Positions 28,251-57,977 of a stretch of 61,872 bases of DNA are shown here, one piece after another. The notes beneath the pieces are model-generated. The model saw only the letters and a program-made list of their open reading frames with translations, was not told the origin of the DNA and searched no databases. Position 1 is the first letter of the stretch, and each line of letters opens with the position of its first letter. Position numbers and translations under genes: made by a program. This stretch comes from Candidatus Hydrothermus pacificus (GTDB lineage: Bacteria > Hydrothermota > Hydrothermia > Hydrothermales > Hydrothermaceae), in the NCBI GenBank assembly GCA_002011615.1, contig MTOH01000002.1, forward strand, positions 271,526-333,397. The letters are read 5' to 3'.

Positions 28251-28874
28251 ATGAATATTAAAGAATATATGATAAGCATGGCGGTGTGTATAATGGCAGG
28301 CACAGGCATTCTAAGAGCAGGCTACTGGACCCATGAGACCGTGGATGCAACCGGAATTGTTGGCTCTTATACCTCCATAGCGCTTGATGCGAATGGAAAT
28401 CCTCATATCAGTTATTGTGACTACACAAACAATGACCTGAAGTATGCCCACAAATCCGGAGGTTCCTGGACTATTGAGACCGTGGATGCAACCGGAGATG
28501 TTGGCTATTCTACCTCAATAGCGCTTGACGCGAATGGGAATCCTCATATCAGTTATTCTGATGACATAAATGCTGACCTCAGGTATGTTACCACAGCCAT
28601 ACGGCTTGAATACCCGAATGGAGGAGAGGTATGGCATCCGGGTGAAACCCAGAATATAAGGTGGTATGGAAAGGGTGAAATAGATATTTACTTTTCATCT
28701 GATGGTTACAATTTCAGATCGCTTGCAGAGAATGTCTCAGGTGGTTCCTATCCTGTGACAGTTCCGGGTGATATAACAGAAAGTGCTGTTATAAAGATTG
28801 TTAGAGACTCTTTTCCCTCAACACAGGATTTATCAGATGGAAGTTTCAGTATAAGACCTGATATTTTCCTGTGA
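28251..28874 (+). CDS. Secreted propeller-repeat protein, upstream copy (probably 3' truncated)
   Basis: About 207 residues from ATG 28251, chosen for the AGAAGGAGG ribosome site directly upstream. The N-terminal signal peptide ends near AGTGILRAG. Two repeats of about 43 residues follow, of the type [25 protein letters not shown]. Next comes an Ig-like (Kre9/KNH-type) module starting [22 protein letters not shown], and then an abrupt stop. The neighbouring paralogue carries a longer version ending in a sorting domain, which this one lacks. Such repeats form beta-propeller-like structures on surface proteins. The function is unknown. Confidence 0.75.
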
Positions 28875-30445
28875 GAAATTTTAAAAATCAGACCATTGAT
28901 GCAACCGGAGATGTTGGCGAGTATACCTCCATAGCCCTTGACGCCAGTGGTAATCCCCATATAAGTTATTACTATGCAACAGGTGGTGATCTGAAATATG
29001 CATACAAATCAGGAGGTTCATGGATAACAGAAACTGTTGATGCGGGTGGAGATGTTGGCGAGTATACCTCCATAGCGTTTGATGCCAGTGGTAATCCTCA
29101 TATCAGTTATTATGATGCAACAAATGGCGACCTGAAGTATGCATATAAATCCGGTGGTTCATGGAATATTGAGACCGTTGATGCAACCGGAAATGTAGGA
29201 CTCTATACTTCAATAGCGATTGATACGGATGGAGCCCCTCACATAAGTTATTCTAGGTACAGTTGGCCAAATTACTTTCTAAAATATGCTTATAGATCTG
29301 GTTCTTCCTGGATAGTTGAAAATCTTGACACAACCAAGGCAAATGGTTATTACACTTCAATTGCTCTTGATACAAAAGGCAACCCTCATATAAGCTATTA
29401 CGATCTGGGCCCTGCGGATTTGGAATATGCCTATAAATCAGGCGGTTCCTGGAGTATTGAAACTGCTGAGGCAGGTGGGGATGTTGGCAGGTATACCTCA
29501 ATAGCACTTGATGCAAATAACATTCCTCATATAAGTTATCATGATAACACAAATGGTGACCTGAAATATGCAACAACTGCAATAGATTTAATTTCGCCAT
29601 CAGGTGGTGAAACCTGGAATGTGGGTGCGAATGCGAGTATTTTATGGTCAGGCCCTGCAAGGATTGATGTTTATATGAGTTTACAGGGTGGTGATGAATA
29701 TCAAGTTCTTCTGGAAGATATCTCGGGTGTGTGGGACAACACAAACCAGAGATACAGTTTTTCATTTCAGGTTCCTCATTTTCCAACGAGATTTGCAAAG
29801 TTAAAAATTGTTTATGCTGATTATCCCCCTGATATTCCTGTTAATTTTTCTGTTTCTGATTCCTTTTTCAGGATAAATTCAACAATAACCCTTTTAAGTT
29901 TTAATGCAAAGCCGGGTGATAAAGGAGTTGTTCTTGAATGGAATACAGAACCCTCTGTTCCTGAGATTGCAGGATATAATCTTTATGTAAGTTCAACCGG
30001 TAAGGATTATGTTAAACTCAATCAGGATTTAATAACAGAAACAGAATTTGAGGATACCGCTACAAAGAATGTATTTTCAATTTATAAACTCGGTGCTGTT
30101 AATGGACTGGGAATGGAGTATATAATAGGGGAAACACAATCTCTTTTACCCAATAAACCTCTTTTTGTTTATCCAAATCTTTCAATGGGTAAAGGTATGA
30201 TTATTGTGAGGGTTCCTGATATTTACTCACCCGGAACACCTGTAAAGATTGATGTTTCAGTTTATAATTCATCCGGACAGAGGATAAGAAAAATAGCAGA
30301 AGGGTATTTTAATCCCGGGATATATAAGTTTGATTTTGACGGAAAAACCGATTCAGGAAAAGAAATTCAGGCAGGCACCTATTTTATCCTTTTTAAAGGT
30401 CCGAAAAATTACAGAGAAAAAACAAAATTCACGGTTCTGAAATGA
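28862..30445 (+). pseudogene. Propeller-repeat protein with FlgD/T9SS-like C terminus, lacking its 5' end
   Basis: The frame opens at 28862 and the first possible start is GTG 28871, overlapping the stop of the previous copy. Encoded in order are five repeats of about 43 residues ([19 protein letters not shown] type), an Ig-like module ([20 protein letters not shown]) and a fibronectin-III-like domain (about 340-410 of the product). A C-terminal FlgD/T9SS-like domain follows ([19 protein letters not shown] ... GTYFILFKG). No signal peptide is present although the domain content is extracellular, and the first repeat is incomplete. A deletion fused it to the upstream paralogue. Coupled translation from the GTG remains possible. 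Confidence 0.7.
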
Positions 30446-52603: not shown

Positions 52604-55600
52604 ATGGATGCTTTGTTATACCTTATAATAGGGATGATGTGGATTTAAACAACTCACCAGGATTTCATCGATGGTAAGATAAGTGATGGTCTTTATATAT
52701 CAAAGGCAATTTATCAGGAACAGGATTCAGGATGTATTGAATTTGTTAAAAGTTTTGATGTTAATGAAGATGGTTATTTTGACCTGACTTCTTCTGATGA
52801 GGGAGGTCCTTATTTAAGAATATGGCTCGGTTCATCTTCTGGTTATTCACAGAATAACTCTATACTGCTTCCCAGTACAAGAGGAGCAGATGTGTTTATT
52901 GCGGACCTGAATCTTGATGGTTATCCCGAACTCATTCATTCAGGACATGAACTTCCCTATGCCATTATTTTTTGGGGAACTCCTGATGGACCCACACCGG
53001 GAAATTTCACCACTCTTGCTTCTGGTAAGTGTGAAGCGATATACTGCGATGATATAAATAAAGATGGATGGCTTGATATAATACTTCCAGGAAGAGAACC
53101 TACAGGGATAAGAATATACTGGGGAAGTGCAAACGGATATTCCGATTATCTTTTTATACCATATGGGGAATGGATAAATCATAATGTGGAAGTTGCAGAC
53201 CTGAATAAAGACGGATGGAAAGACATGGTTTTTATAACAGAGGATTTAGGAACTGAATTAATTGTATACTGGGGACCAAATAACAATTATACCATGTAAT
53301 TTATTCAAACAGGAGTTAACTCCACACATGGTGCATCTCTTGCAGATCTGGATGGGAATGGATGGCTTGATATAGTAATCACTGCTTACAGAACTTATCA
53401 ACAATCTTCAGTAGTATGGGGAAGTTCACAGGGATTTGATTCAATCCCTCCAACTATTATCAATACAGGTTATTCGACAGGGGGGAGTGCTGTATGGGAT
53501 TTTAATCAGGATGGTCTTTTTGACATTGTATCCCTTCGCATAAACTGGACAAAACCTGAGATTTATTACAATACTGGAACATATCCTTATTTTGGTGACA
53601 CTCATTCTCAAGAAATCGGTCCGGTCTATCTATGGGCTACAGGTGGGTTTACAGGAGATTTCAACTTTGATGGAAATATTGATATATGGATAAATAACCG
53701 CAGTGATTATTCCTATATTTTATGGGGACCCAACTATACAAATTATACCCAGCTTCCTGTAAGCAGTGACCATCATGGCTCCTTCATGGAAATAGGTAAT
53801 ACCTATAACAGGGCTTTCTATGAAGAATACATTTCATCCTTATTTTACCTGGGTCCTGATTCTGTAATCTACGGCGGAACTGTATCCTGGGTCGCAAACG
53901 AACCCGAAGGTTCAAAAGTGGAGGTTTACCTCAGGGCAGGAAATAGTCCACAGATAGATACTTCATGGACTAACTGGGTTTATATTCAAAATAACGGAGA
54001 CTCAATTCCTCAAACACTCTTCGGAAAACATTATTTACAATACAGACTCTGGCTTACATACCAGAAACCAACCCTTGTTCCCAATTTAGAAAAAATCTCT
54101 TTCAACATCCTGACCTCACCCCCCTCTCTTTTAAAAATTTTCCCTGATACATCCTTCTTTGTTCATCCCAGTGATTCTGTTATCTATGAAATCAAAGCAG
54201 TATATACAGGTGAAAATAATGAAATGGTTTACCTCTACACACAGGGAACTCACGCAGGATGGAACGCAAAATTAACCGATACAACGGGTAGCCTGATTGA
54301 TACAATCCTTTTAATACCCGATGATACTTTACTTTTTAATTTAAAAATATATTCACCTCAATTTCCTTCGCCTTTTGAAGCAGATACAACTTTTGTAAAA
54401 GGTTATCTAATCTCAAATCCTTTAAAAAGGGATTCTGCAATGATAATTACAAGCATAACAGGAAATCTCTCACTCATAGTTGAACCTGATACACAGGGAG
54501 TAACAAACCCGGGTATTACAATATCTTATCCGTTAAGAATTATAAATACAGGTGAATTCAAAGATTCAATCTTGTTATCCCACACAAACAGTTCAACCAG
54601 TTATGCGACTTATATTACAGATTCAACCGGGGCAACCATAATAGATTTCGCTAAAACATTCCCCTCTGATACAGCAAAAATAATTCTCTGGGTTACTCCC
54701 TTGCCTTCCACCCCTGATTCACAGAATACCACTGAGGTTTTCGCAAAATCCTCATGGGATACACTTATTTACGACTCCGCTCTGGTAACAACCTATCTAT
54801 ACCATCTCCCCTTCCTCATGGTCGAACCCGACACATTTTCCTATGCAAACCCCCAGGATACCGTTAAATATAAACTCAGAGTAATCAACAACACAGATTC
54901 AAACGATACTGTCCAACTCTCCTTCCATCACACCCAGAACTGGGACGCAAGAATTACCGATACTCTCGGAAACCCCATCAATAACATCTATGTCTCAGCA
55001 CGTGATACAGAATTTTTATTCTTTGAACTTTATACACCACAAAATGTTCAGGGGGGGATAAGAGATACAGCATTTGTAAAGGGTATCTCCGAAAATAATG
55101 GTATCACTGATTCAGCAAGATGTATAACAGAAATAAATCTAAGCGCACTCGTCCTTATAGAACCTGACCAGCAAAAAACAGCACCTCCGGGCTCAAGTAT
55201 AACTTATTATCTTAAAGTCATAAACTCAGGGAATGCACAGGACATAATAAATGTATTTATCTTATCAACTCAGTGGGCTCAAAACCTCCTGTATGATAGC
55301 CTGACAAATTCGCCTTTACCTGATTATAACAATGATGGATATCAGGATGTCGTATTATATCCGGGTACATCTCAAACAATATTTGTAAATGTTAATGTGC
55401 CTCAAAATGCCACACCCTCTCAACAGGATTTAACAACAGTTCAGGCAGTATCAACAAATGTGCCCAATGTGTGGGACAATGCCACACTTCTGACAACCGT
55501 TGAAAAGATATTCTATTTACTGGAATTTGAACCTGATACAGAAATATCCTTACCTTATAATTCCTCTGCCTTAATACCATTATACGCCCTGTTTCAGGGA

Positions 55601-56187
55601 AATTCCTCTGATTATGTTGAAATAGAATGGAACTATTCGGACACAAACCTTAACATTGAACTCAGAGATTCATCAGGAATTAACCCGCTGATTGATAATA
55701 ACCAGAACGGTAATGCAGATATGGGTATATGTCAGCCGGGTGATAAAAATTACCTCTCACTCTATGTGAAAACACCCGGGTTTAATTATTCAGCATCGGA
55801 TACTCATGATATGTGTAATATAAACTTTAAAGCCTATCTCTCATCATATCCCACTCTCTATGACTCAGCAAAAGTGAAAATATATCTCATACCACCCCTT
55901 CACATACATAACTATGCCTCTCCTTTCTCCGCAAAAGAAGGCACCAACTTCTTCATATCGGTCCCTGAGAATGGTAGAGGAGCACTGGAAATTTATTCAA
56001 GACTGGGGAAAAAATAACTACATTGTTTAAAAATAAGCCTCTGAACAGGGGTATTCATATGATATACTGGAATGGAAAAAATGAAAAAGGTCATTATGTC
56101 ACACCAGGGGTTTATATATACATATTTGAATTTAAAGGTCAAAAAACTTCCAAAACAATAAGTAAAAAAACAGCGGTAAAAGAATGA
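52604..56187 (+). pseudogene. Giant secreted FG-GAP/NEW3-like surface protein, disrupted
   Basis: One gene of about 1195 codons with three lesions. ATG 52604 (after GGGGGGAGAG) begins a signal peptide that hits TAA at 52646. The same frame continues through FG-GAP/VCBS-type repeats (ADLNLDGYPELIHSG, DINKDGWLDIILPG, DFNFDGNIDIWINN) with another TAA at 53297. From about 54110 come five repeats of about 110 residues of CARDB/NEW3 type (VEPDTQGVTNPGITISYPLRIINTG). After an A6 run (56009-56014) the frame ends at TAA 56015. A -1 shift gives a FlgD/T9SS-like C terminus ending at 56187. The FG-GAP repeats suggest an adhesin or ligand-binding propeller. Confidence 0.82.
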
Positions 56188-57674
56188 TAAAGTTAATTTT
56201 AATTATCCTTTTGAATGAGGGGGAGGTTGTTTTCCCTCTTTTAAGGGTTGGAATAGGAGCAAGACCTTCTGCTCTTGGAGAAAGTTTCGTCGGCATTACC
56301 GATGACATTCAGGGAGTGTGGTGGAACCCTGCATCAAATGTTCTTGTGAAGAAAAAAGGTATTTTTTTCTCCTATAATCACTGGTTTATGGATTTCAAAG
56401 ACTTTTATTCTGGTGGTTTTTTACCTACAAAATACATTAATACAGGAATAAGCTTCTTATATTCTGGAACGCAGGACATAGAGCTGAGAGACCCTGAAGG
56501 AAATTATCTTGGTAAGGGAAATCAGAATGCATATATAATACAACTCACATTATCAAAGGATTTTTCAGCTTATTTTATGCCAGGAGTCAGCTTTAAATAT
56601 CTTTATGAAAAATTACCTGAATCCGAAGGTATAGGAGGTTGTCTTGATATAGGTTTTACCTCAAAAATAACAAAAGACCTATCTTTTGGTCTTGCTGTGA
56701 AAAACGCAGGACCTGATATGAGATACTCTACAGGAGACTATCCTCTGCCCTTTGAGATAAAGACAGGTGTTTACCAGAAAATAAAAAACATGGTTGGAAT
56801 TTTTCTTGACTTCACATTTCCCAGGGGAAAAAGATATCATATAAATGCGGGTATGGAATTCTGGATAAAAAACCTTGTTGCTTTAAGGACAGGATACAGA
56901 TATATTGATGAAACAAACAAATTTACATTCGGGGGTGGTATAAACTGGAAAGATATCGGAGTTGATTATGCTTTTGCCGATTATGGAAAGCTTGGAATGA
57001 CTCATAGAATTTCGCTGTCTTTCCTGTTTCCCGAACATATAAAAATTACTCCTCCAAGAGAGCCTTATGAAGGTATGATTAAAGGAAAGGTCTATGATGC
57101 AGAAACAGGTGAGGAACTAAAAGCAACGGTTGGATATAAAGGTAAAATAGAGGGAGAATCTTATACTCAGAAGGGTAAATACTTAATAACAAGATTACCT
57201 GCAGGGAAATATAAACTGAAAGTTATTCCTGAAAACAAACTCTATTATATCCAAGAAAAAGAAGTTGAAGTTTTGCCTGAAAAAACCGTAAGGGAAGACT
57301 TTGCCCTTTTTAAAAAGGGACAGAAACTTGTAATTCACAGAATTTACTTTGAAACAGGTAAAGCAGAAATAATTCCTCTTTCATACCCTCTCCTCGAGGA
57401 AATAGGGAAAATTCTCCTGACAAATCCTGATTTAAAAATAGAAATAGAAGGACATACTGACAATGTTCCAATAAATACACCAGAATATCCTTCAAATCTT
57501 GAACTCTCCAGAGCAAGAGCAGAAGCGGTTAAAAAATATATTGTCAATAAATTCAAAATAGCTTCTGATAGAATAAAAACAACAGGATACGGGGATACAA
57601 GACCAATTGCTTCAAATGAAACTGAAGAAGGAAGAGCCTTAAACAGAAGGATAGAAATAAAGTTTTTAAAATAA
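56184..57674 (+). CDS. PorV/PorQ-like barrel fused to carboxypeptidase-regulatory and OmpA domains
   Basis: 496 residues. Residues 1-290 are a PorV/PorQ (UPF0164)-type outer-membrane barrel: VGIGARPSALGESFVGITDDIQGVWWNPAS at the N terminus, repeated strands and SFLFPEH at its end. Residues 300-375 are a carboxypeptidase regulatory-like beta sandwich (IKGKVYDAETGEELKATV). Residues 385-496 are an OmpA peptidoglycan-binding domain (IEIEGHTDNVP, NLELSRARAEAVKKYIV, GYGDTRPIASNETEEGRALNRRIEI). The signal peptide is short. PorV normally shuttles T9SS substrates, so this may be a peptidoglycan-anchored version. ATG overlaps the preceding stop. Confidence 0.87.
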   Translation: MIKLILIILLNEGEVVFPLLRVGIGARPSALGESFVGITDDIQGVWWNPASNVLVKKKGIFFSYNHWFMDFKDFYSGGFLPTKYINTGISFLYSGTQDIELRDPEGNYLGKGNQNAYIIQLTLSKDFSAYFMPGVSFKYLYEKLPESEGIGGCLDIGFTSKITKDLSFGLAVKNAGPDMRYSTGDYPLPFEIKTGVYQKIKNMVGIFLDFTFPRGKRYHINAGMEFWIKNLVALRTGYRYIDETNKFTFGGGINWKDIGVDYAFADYGKLGMTHRISLSFLFPEHIKITPPREPYEGMIKGKVYDAETGEELKATVGYKGKIEGESYTQKGKYLITRLPAGKYKLKVIPENKLYYIQEKEVEVLPEKTVREDFALFKKGQKLVIHRIYFETGKAEIIPLSYPLLEEIGKILLTNPDLKIEIEGHTDNVPINTPEYPSNLELSRARAEAVKKYIVNKFKIASDRIKTTGYGDTRPIASNETEEGRALNRRIEIKFLK

Positions 57675-57692: not shown

Positions 57693-57769
57693 GAGCCCAT
57701 AGCTCAGGTGGTTGGAGTGTCACCTGAGAAAAGGTGAGGTTGATGTGTTAATCTATTCAATAACGGCTC
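57693..57769 (+). ncRNA. Degenerate tRNA-like sequence (77 nt)
   Basis: Starts GAGCCCATAGCTCAGGTGGTTG, nearly identical to the first 22 bases of the tRNA-Ile at 57879. It can form an acceptor GAGCC/GGCTC, a D arm, an anticodon-like arm TCACC/GGTGA with an abnormal 8-base loop, and a weak T arm (TGTTA/CAATA) lacking the TTC consensus. The length is exactly tRNA-like. It has no own promoter visible. Probably a decayed tRNA duplicate. An alternative 8-bp hairpin (57703-57710 with 57721-57728) exists. Confidence 0.5.
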
Positions 57770-57864: not shown

Positions 57865-57878
57865 TTAACCTCTTTTTT

Positions 57879-57952
57879 GGGCCCATAGCTCAGGTGGTTA
57901 GAGCGCGCGCCTGATAAGCGCGAGGTCGGTGGTTCAAGTCCACCTGGGCCCA
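57879..57952 (+). tRNA. tRNA-Ile (anticodon GAT)
   Basis: A canonical 74-nt cloverleaf: acceptor GGGCCCA/TGGGCCC, D arm GCTC/GAGC, anticodon arm CGCGC-CTGATAA-GCGCG with anticodon GAT, 5-base variable loop and T arm GGTGG-TTCAAGT-CCACC. The discriminator is A and CCA is not encoded. The very GC-rich stems in an AT-rich genome suggest a heat-loving host. The next start codon is only 25 bases downstream, so processing from a tRNA-mRNA transcript is possible. Confidence 0.97.
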
Positions 57953-57977
57953 TTAAATTTTTCAAAGGAGAAGGTTT

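Follow-up and report, generated by a model that had tools for sequence, protein, structure and literature searches.

Organization of the locus

The window, that is, the whole stretch of DNA analysed here (61,872 nt from Candidatus Hydrothermus pacificus, contig MTOH01000002.1), contains near its end a gene for a three-domain protein that we interpret as a putative T9SS carrier. It overlaps a broken gene, immediately upstream, for its candidate cargo. The features of this region are:

52604..56187 (start approximate), + strand: cargo gene, broken, with FG-GAP repeats, an Ig-like stretch and a T9SS-type CTD (profile matches, tblastn)
55912..56184 (start approximate), + strand: sorting domain (CTD) of the cargo, divided between two frames (CTD model, weak Pfam matches)
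56184..56187, + strand: ATGA overlap between carrier start and cargo stop (sequence)
56184..57674, + strand: putative carrier gene, 496 aa, with a PorV/PorQ-family barrel, a carboxypeptidase-regulatory-like domain (CRD) and an OmpA domain (ORF coordinates confirmed exactly)
56229..57026, + strand: PorV/PorQ-family barrel, aa 16–281 (NF033709, predicted strands)
57069..57308, + strand: CRD, aa 296–375 (sub-threshold Pfam matches, beta domain in the model)
57345..57665, + strand: OmpA-type peptidoglycan-binding domain, aa 388–494 (PF00691, PDB matches)

Domains, fold and family of the carrier

The three-part architecture of the original prediction held up. The signal peptide of the carrier, judged by eye, seems short. 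The barrel scored 151.8 bits (154.7 for the barrel alone) with the family model PorV_fam (NF033709, cut-off 90), and the OmpA domain 80.3 bits with PF00691 (aa 388–488, cut-off 27.2). The CRD was weak in Pfam, with 26.6 bits for CarbopepD_reg_2 (cut-off 32.2) and 20.4 bits for CarboxypepD_reg (cut-off 32.3); in the AlphaFold2 model it is a separate, confident beta domain, and it is also present in relatives. The barrel stayed below the cut-offs of the PorQ equivalog, the second-best barrel model (NF033711, 78.8 bits, or 82.2 for the barrel alone, cut-off 220), of the PorV equivalog (NF033710, 59.9 bits, cut-off 250) and of the Pfam PorV family (PF19572, 14.2 to 16.4 bits, cut-off 27). NCBIfam and Pfam both contain models for PorP/SprF, and none of these was among the barrel matches at E ≤ 10 (four in NCBIfam, one in Pfam).

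The AlphaFold2 model of the carrier (pLDDT 90.2, pTM 0.62, 47 sequences) has 14 long barrel strands (aa 58–282) after short N-terminal helices, as in barrels of the FadL type. Its best solved matches in Foldseek were 8gl6_F (2.4e-15) and 6h3i_F (1.4e-14), both T9SS translocon entries in which chain F is named PorV, and FadL was the next barrel (4.2e-09). VIA-align gave the same order, with Z 34.3 and 33.3 for these two PorV chains and Z 31.2 for FadL (3pgr), although by this measure PorV leads only modestly. A profile built from 18 such barrels found solved PorV at 3.7e-18 and its top FadL-type channel at 0.0021. The fold is indeed common to FadL and to BAM-complex barrels (Z 31 and 27), and could thus suit a FadL-like uptake channel or a BamG-like barrel unconnected with secretion. 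We regard this as very improbable, because the barrel passed the PorV_fam cut-off, both the profile and Foldseek rank PorV before FadL, and the gene is linked to CTD genes (see below). The profile search, which could have placed the barrel in an unrelated family and so undone the original prediction, instead placed it with PorV; together with the PorV_fam score and the top structural match, this leads us to reject a barrel unrelated to the T9SS. The carrier is a member of the PorV/PorQ family, and not of PorP/SprF or PorE.

In the OmpA domain, D426, N438 and R445 probably occupy the places of PorE Asp576, Asn584 and Arg591, the side chains described as holding peptidoglycan (PMC7192894); the correspondence was assigned with the residue pattern GHTD...N..LS..RA and not by alignment with PorE. 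In a conservation analysis of 18 fusions the D and the R were invariant and the N was present in at least 90%. With a PF00691 score over the cut-off and the Asp, Asn and Arg ligand residues in place, the domain has what is expected of a peptidoglycan anchor.

The cargo gene is broken in the window

The original prediction had placed the carrier directly behind a sorted surface protein, with overlapping codons. The overlap is there (ATGA, with the cargo TGA at 56185–56187 and the carrier ATG at 56184–56186), as is a CTD, but the cargo is not intact in the window: two in-frame TAA codons interrupt it, at 52646 and 53297, and a frameshift follows at about 55999–56017. In tblastn comparisons three of five cargo relatives (L045, L119 and L125) align in a single frame through both TAA codons, a fourth (L128) spans the second, and the alignment of the last (L116) starts at 54119; with all five, the CTD resumes in a different frame beyond about 55999–56014. 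What can be recognized of the product includes an FG-GAP_3 match (52892–53296, 60.6 bits) and the second piece of the CTD, found by a model of partner CTDs at E 3.6e-19 and by CHU_C (20.3 bits) and FlgD_ig (14.7 bits), both under cut-off. Among five paired cargoes CHU_C passes in one, FlgD_ig in one and Por_Secre_tail in none, which gives no clear CTD type. FG-GAP repeats occur in four of the five cargoes of CRD-type barrels that were scanned, and DUF11-type repeats in the fifth.

The lesions may reflect either a pseudogene or an assembly error. If they are genuine, the pair in the window could be a relic, with a dead cargo and a carrier either kept by chance or used for some other CTD protein; the genome has others (23 places match the CTD model). 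The two stop codons and the frameshift speak for this; the carrier ORF is nevertheless intact and keeps the conserved positions, and the lesions may come from the assembly. We hold a relic to be possible but not the likely state of this pair, and it is compatible with the explanation that we favour for the family as a whole. The cargo next to another fusion (L137, G123:C394) seemingly also ends in a shifted frame, so that the window may not be the sole case of this kind.

Two further observations were made in the window. The 5′ part of a tRNA-Ile gene is repeated just past the carrier stop codon (57696–57720 and 57878–57953), possibly as the scar of an insertion or duplication, and positions 28862–30445 code for a further protein with a CTD-like tail.

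Distribution of the fusion

By phylum, the window groups with candidate division WOR-3. A single-sequence scan of genome contigs with the carrier returned no relative. The search for the PorV-CarbopepD_reg-OmpA architecture, proposed with the original prediction, recovered 42 full-length barrel-to-OmpA fusions besides that of the window, spread over 34 of 147 genomes from this phylum. The scan split the window protein itself in two, since most relatives have two CRDs and it has a single one. The 91 stretches analysed contain 89 barrel ORFs, 45 of them with barrel, CRD and OmpA domain, 17 with barrel and CRD, and 27 of other kinds. In a FastTree phylogeny the CRD-bearing barrels, including that of the window, form one fork of 64 rows, three of which are other barrels (support 82%, unstarred, with a FastTree warning of long branches), and presence of the OmpA domain switches several times across the barrel tree.

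No barrel-to-OmpA fusion was among the matches listed for 49 genomes of other loci, and none was found at E ≤ 1e-85 in 395 genomes of another phylum (that of an Ignavibacteriales record, L207/G168), a test in which three candidates were scored per genome among the rows listed, against nine in the 147-genome scan, so that absence of the fusion outside the phylum is not proven. PorV-family barrels directly behind CTD genes were also seen in records from Zixibacteria, Elusimicrobia, Gemmatimonadota and others (L182–L254). A further locus (L063, G000:C2:57251–62922) codes for a Sortilin-Vps10 protein with a Por_Secre_tail, which passes PF18962, followed by a PorV-family barrel whose tail has weak TPR-type matches; this is a second kind of cargo-carrier pair.

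These data bear on whether the protein is instead part of the secretion machine, a PorE-like scaffold linking translocon and wall. The CRD and OmpA tail is indeed PorE-like, matching the PorE model NF052230 over the tail region alone with 63.5 bits, far under the cut-off of 600. We nevertheless consider a scaffold quite unlikely, since the barrel is of the PorV/PorQ family, TPR or propeller models are absent from the matches listed, and matches at E ≤ 1e-85 occur in only 46 of the 147 genomes, some of which have multiple copies. Genome G126, for example, has three CRD-type barrels with a CTD gene upstream of each.

Linkage to CTD genes

The stretches compared had been picked by their barrel match and not by their neighbouring genes. 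Among those with at least 300 bp of sequence in front, 31 of 43 fusions and 15 of 17 sisters without OmpA domain directly follow a CTD gene, against 7 of 27 other PorV-type barrels and 21 of 785 background ORFs. The first CTD model was seeded with the tail of the window cargo, which favours the rates of partners, and misses CTDs of the Por_Secre_tail type, which makes the 7 of 27 a lower bound. Two of the 31 upstream CTDs are weak (L137, E 5e-3, and L144, 2e-5). In six whole genomes, a listed CTD lies within 500 bp upstream of 8 of 9 CRD-type barrels and of 2 of 56 other PorV-type barrels, again a lower bound for the latter and a favoured rate for the former, since the model was built from partner CTDs and included those of five of the eight pairs. 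This contrast used 150 listed of 341 CTD places and 65 of 76 barrel rows, the 11 dropped rows being second halves of split matches and short fragments. Among CRD-type barrels whose partner CTD was outside the model, three of four were paired. The genes are also closely spaced: 30 of 48 pairs offer the carrier an ATG between −4 and +10 bp of the cargo stop, and the −4 gap of the window recurs in other pairs. Taken together, the two contrasts lead us to reject a chance neighbour.

The original prediction had raised the question of whether the fusion always follows a cargo gene; it usually does, but not always. Twelve of the 43 fusions are without a recognisable upstream CTD gene, five of them from one genus (g41) and two from a second genus of the same family, which rules out a universal cargo-carrier rule. 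Since sisters without OmpA domain retain the linkage, anchoring is not needed for pairing.

Paired CTDs also differ in sequence from unpaired ones. All 24 aligned rows of paired CTDs have an R at the second position ahead of a conserved G, as have six of seven rows of a second, overlapping paired set, in which the remaining row is the other half of the split CTD of the window. The R occurs in 3 of 25 unpaired rows, and one of these three is a tandem cargo from a paired locus; the last two counts are over distinct rows, and one unpaired row is gapped at the site. Distances among barrels correlated with distances among their CTDs (r 0.774, 41 pairs), nearest neighbours agreed in 25 of 41 cases, and none of 2000 within-family shuffles reached this r (mean 0.524, maximum 0.622). 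The test comprised 41 of the 48 pairs, excluding the window, with its split tail, and L137, L139, L144, L145, L146 and L163, with weak, partial or odd CTDs. The match does not prove contact between the two proteins, since it is also expected of two co-inherited genes.

A general outer-membrane tether has to be weighed here, in which a PorV-derived barrel would tie the outer membrane to the wall and the neighbouring cargo would reflect operon history and not a ligand. It would account for an OmpA domain with all ligand residues and for the five fusions of genus g41 and the seven others without a recognised CTD gene. It accords poorly with the contrast between CRD-type and other barrels in the same six genomes, even allowing for a CTD model built in part from partners, with the cargo genes kept by sisters that lack the OmpA domain, and with the distinct CTD signature beside CRD-type barrels. 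We therefore judge a tether unlikely.

Secretion machinery in the genome

The genome to which the window belongs (2.06 Mb, 95% complete) contains a gene for the SprA translocon (TIGR04189, 377.4 bits, cut-off 200). It also contains two PorU-like sortases, at 412.4 and 412.3 bits (cut-off 420) in frames clipped by the locus edge, and a PorV-like free barrel that scores 110.5 bits with the PorV equivalog (cut-off 250). The presence of the usual motor is unproven, because a search for GldM_1st, run without a positive control, gave no match at E ≤ 10 in this genome.

The same genome codes for another protein of 811 aa (L072, 5269–7701), composed of a barrel that resembles PorV weakly, three CRDs and an OmpA domain; it lacks an upstream CTD gene and falls outside the fork of CRD-bearing barrels. 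A Peptidase_C25 fragment match is identical at the end of contig C2 and the start of contig C7 of G000, which suggests that these contigs overlap or share a repeat.

A probable wall-anchored carrier for a dedicated cargo

We consider it probable that the protein serves the T9SS as a carrier for one dedicated cargo and brings its own anchor to the cell wall. Its barrel would dock on SprA in the manner of PorV and would catch the CTD of a single cargo, the large FG-GAP/Ig-type surface protein encoded directly upstream, after which carrier and cargo would exit the translocon together; carrier docking and energy-driven extraction have been described (PMC10994853, PMC12635249). A 14-strand barrel has both termini on the periplasmic side, so that the CRD would be a spacer in the periplasm and the OmpA domain would hold peptidoglycan. 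The carrier would then be a fixed surface socket and not a recycled shuttle, and, being fused to a wall-binding domain and encoded right behind its cargo, it probably nails that cargo to the wall. A cell-wall-fixed receptor, as originally proposed, is the best reading, since the barrel passed as PorV/PorQ family, a cargo gene is usually upstream and the peptidoglycan side chains are conserved; from these we infer the docking, the binding of the cargo, the fixation to the wall in vivo and the one-to-one use of carrier and cargo. Several points count against this reading: the twelve fusions without a CTD gene, the linkage kept by sisters that lack the OmpA domain, the negative GldM search, the broken cargo of the window, the seeding of the CTD models with partners, the mixed Pfam matches of the CTDs and the short signal peptide.

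A bolder version, prompted by the negative GldM search, would make the carriers of the WOR-3 T9SS wall-locked and single-use. Capture of peptidoglycan by the OmpA domain, in place of a moving track, would pull or ratchet the carrier-cargo pair out of SprA, and each cargo would be fixed on the spot. This is speculative, and we give it little credence.

Comparison with known systems

The carrier shares with OmpA/OprF the combination of a barrel and a periplasmic OmpA domain. The barrel of OmpA/OprF has eight strands, however, and we know of no linkage of these proteins to a cargo. PorQ, whose equivalog cut-off the window barrel misses, has to our knowledge no OmpA tail. With PorV the carrier shares the family, the fold and, likely, CTD binding. 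PorV is described as a single shared shuttle, used by all type A CTDs and thought to be recycled (PMC12618676), whereas the barrels reported here are present in several copies, most of them next to a cargo gene, and bear a CRD and OmpA tail. PorE has the same order of CRD and OmpA domain and the same peptidoglycan residues, but it is a lipoprotein of the periplasm that carries TPR and propeller domains and has no barrel (PMC9143113).

The closest parallels are PorP/SprF carriers with PorE-like partners, namely PorE-PorP-PG1035 of Porphyromonas gingivalis and the type B pairs of Flavobacterium johnsoniae, which likewise combine a dedicated 14-strand FadL-type barrel with a CRD/OmpA wall anchor (PMC9143113, PMC12618676). 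Type B cargoes use cognate PorP/SprF carriers, and in the first two cases the carrier gene lies directly downstream of that of the cargo (PMC12618676). PorE-PorP-PG1035 and SprF-SprB are precedents, six porP-like genes of F. johnsoniae adjoin porE-like genes, and wall anchoring of non-mobile cargo through a PorP-PorE bridge has been postulated (PMC9143113). PorP-like carriers dedicated to type B cargo, some of them encoded next to PorE-like anchors, were already known in Bacteroidota, and the idea is less isolated than the original prediction implied (PMC9143113, PMC12618676). PorP/SprF-like genes of F. johnsoniae are often directly behind cargo genes (PMC9143113, PMC12618676), as is the carrier of the window and as are 31 of the 43 fusions. 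The carrier described here differs in that carrier and anchor are one chain, in its PorV/PorQ-family barrel, in having neither TPR nor propeller domains and in its phylum.

Our literature search, with subscription papers and preprints outside it, found neither a PorV-OmpA fusion nor a link of WOR-3 to 'type IX secretion', and WOR-3 does not appear in the list of T9SS phyla in the available part of PMC11285876. The present data place an SprA-based system in WOR-3 and suggest that PorV-family barrels can become dedicated to a cargo. They also bear on how non-mobile T9SS cargo stays on the surface: in tens of genomes carrier and anchor are naturally joined, for the most part next to the gene of a cargo. 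This speaks for a single functional unit of the two, which the fusion makes testable as a one-gene system. The fusion is best read as a one-chain counterpart of the PorP-PorE pair of Bacteroidota.
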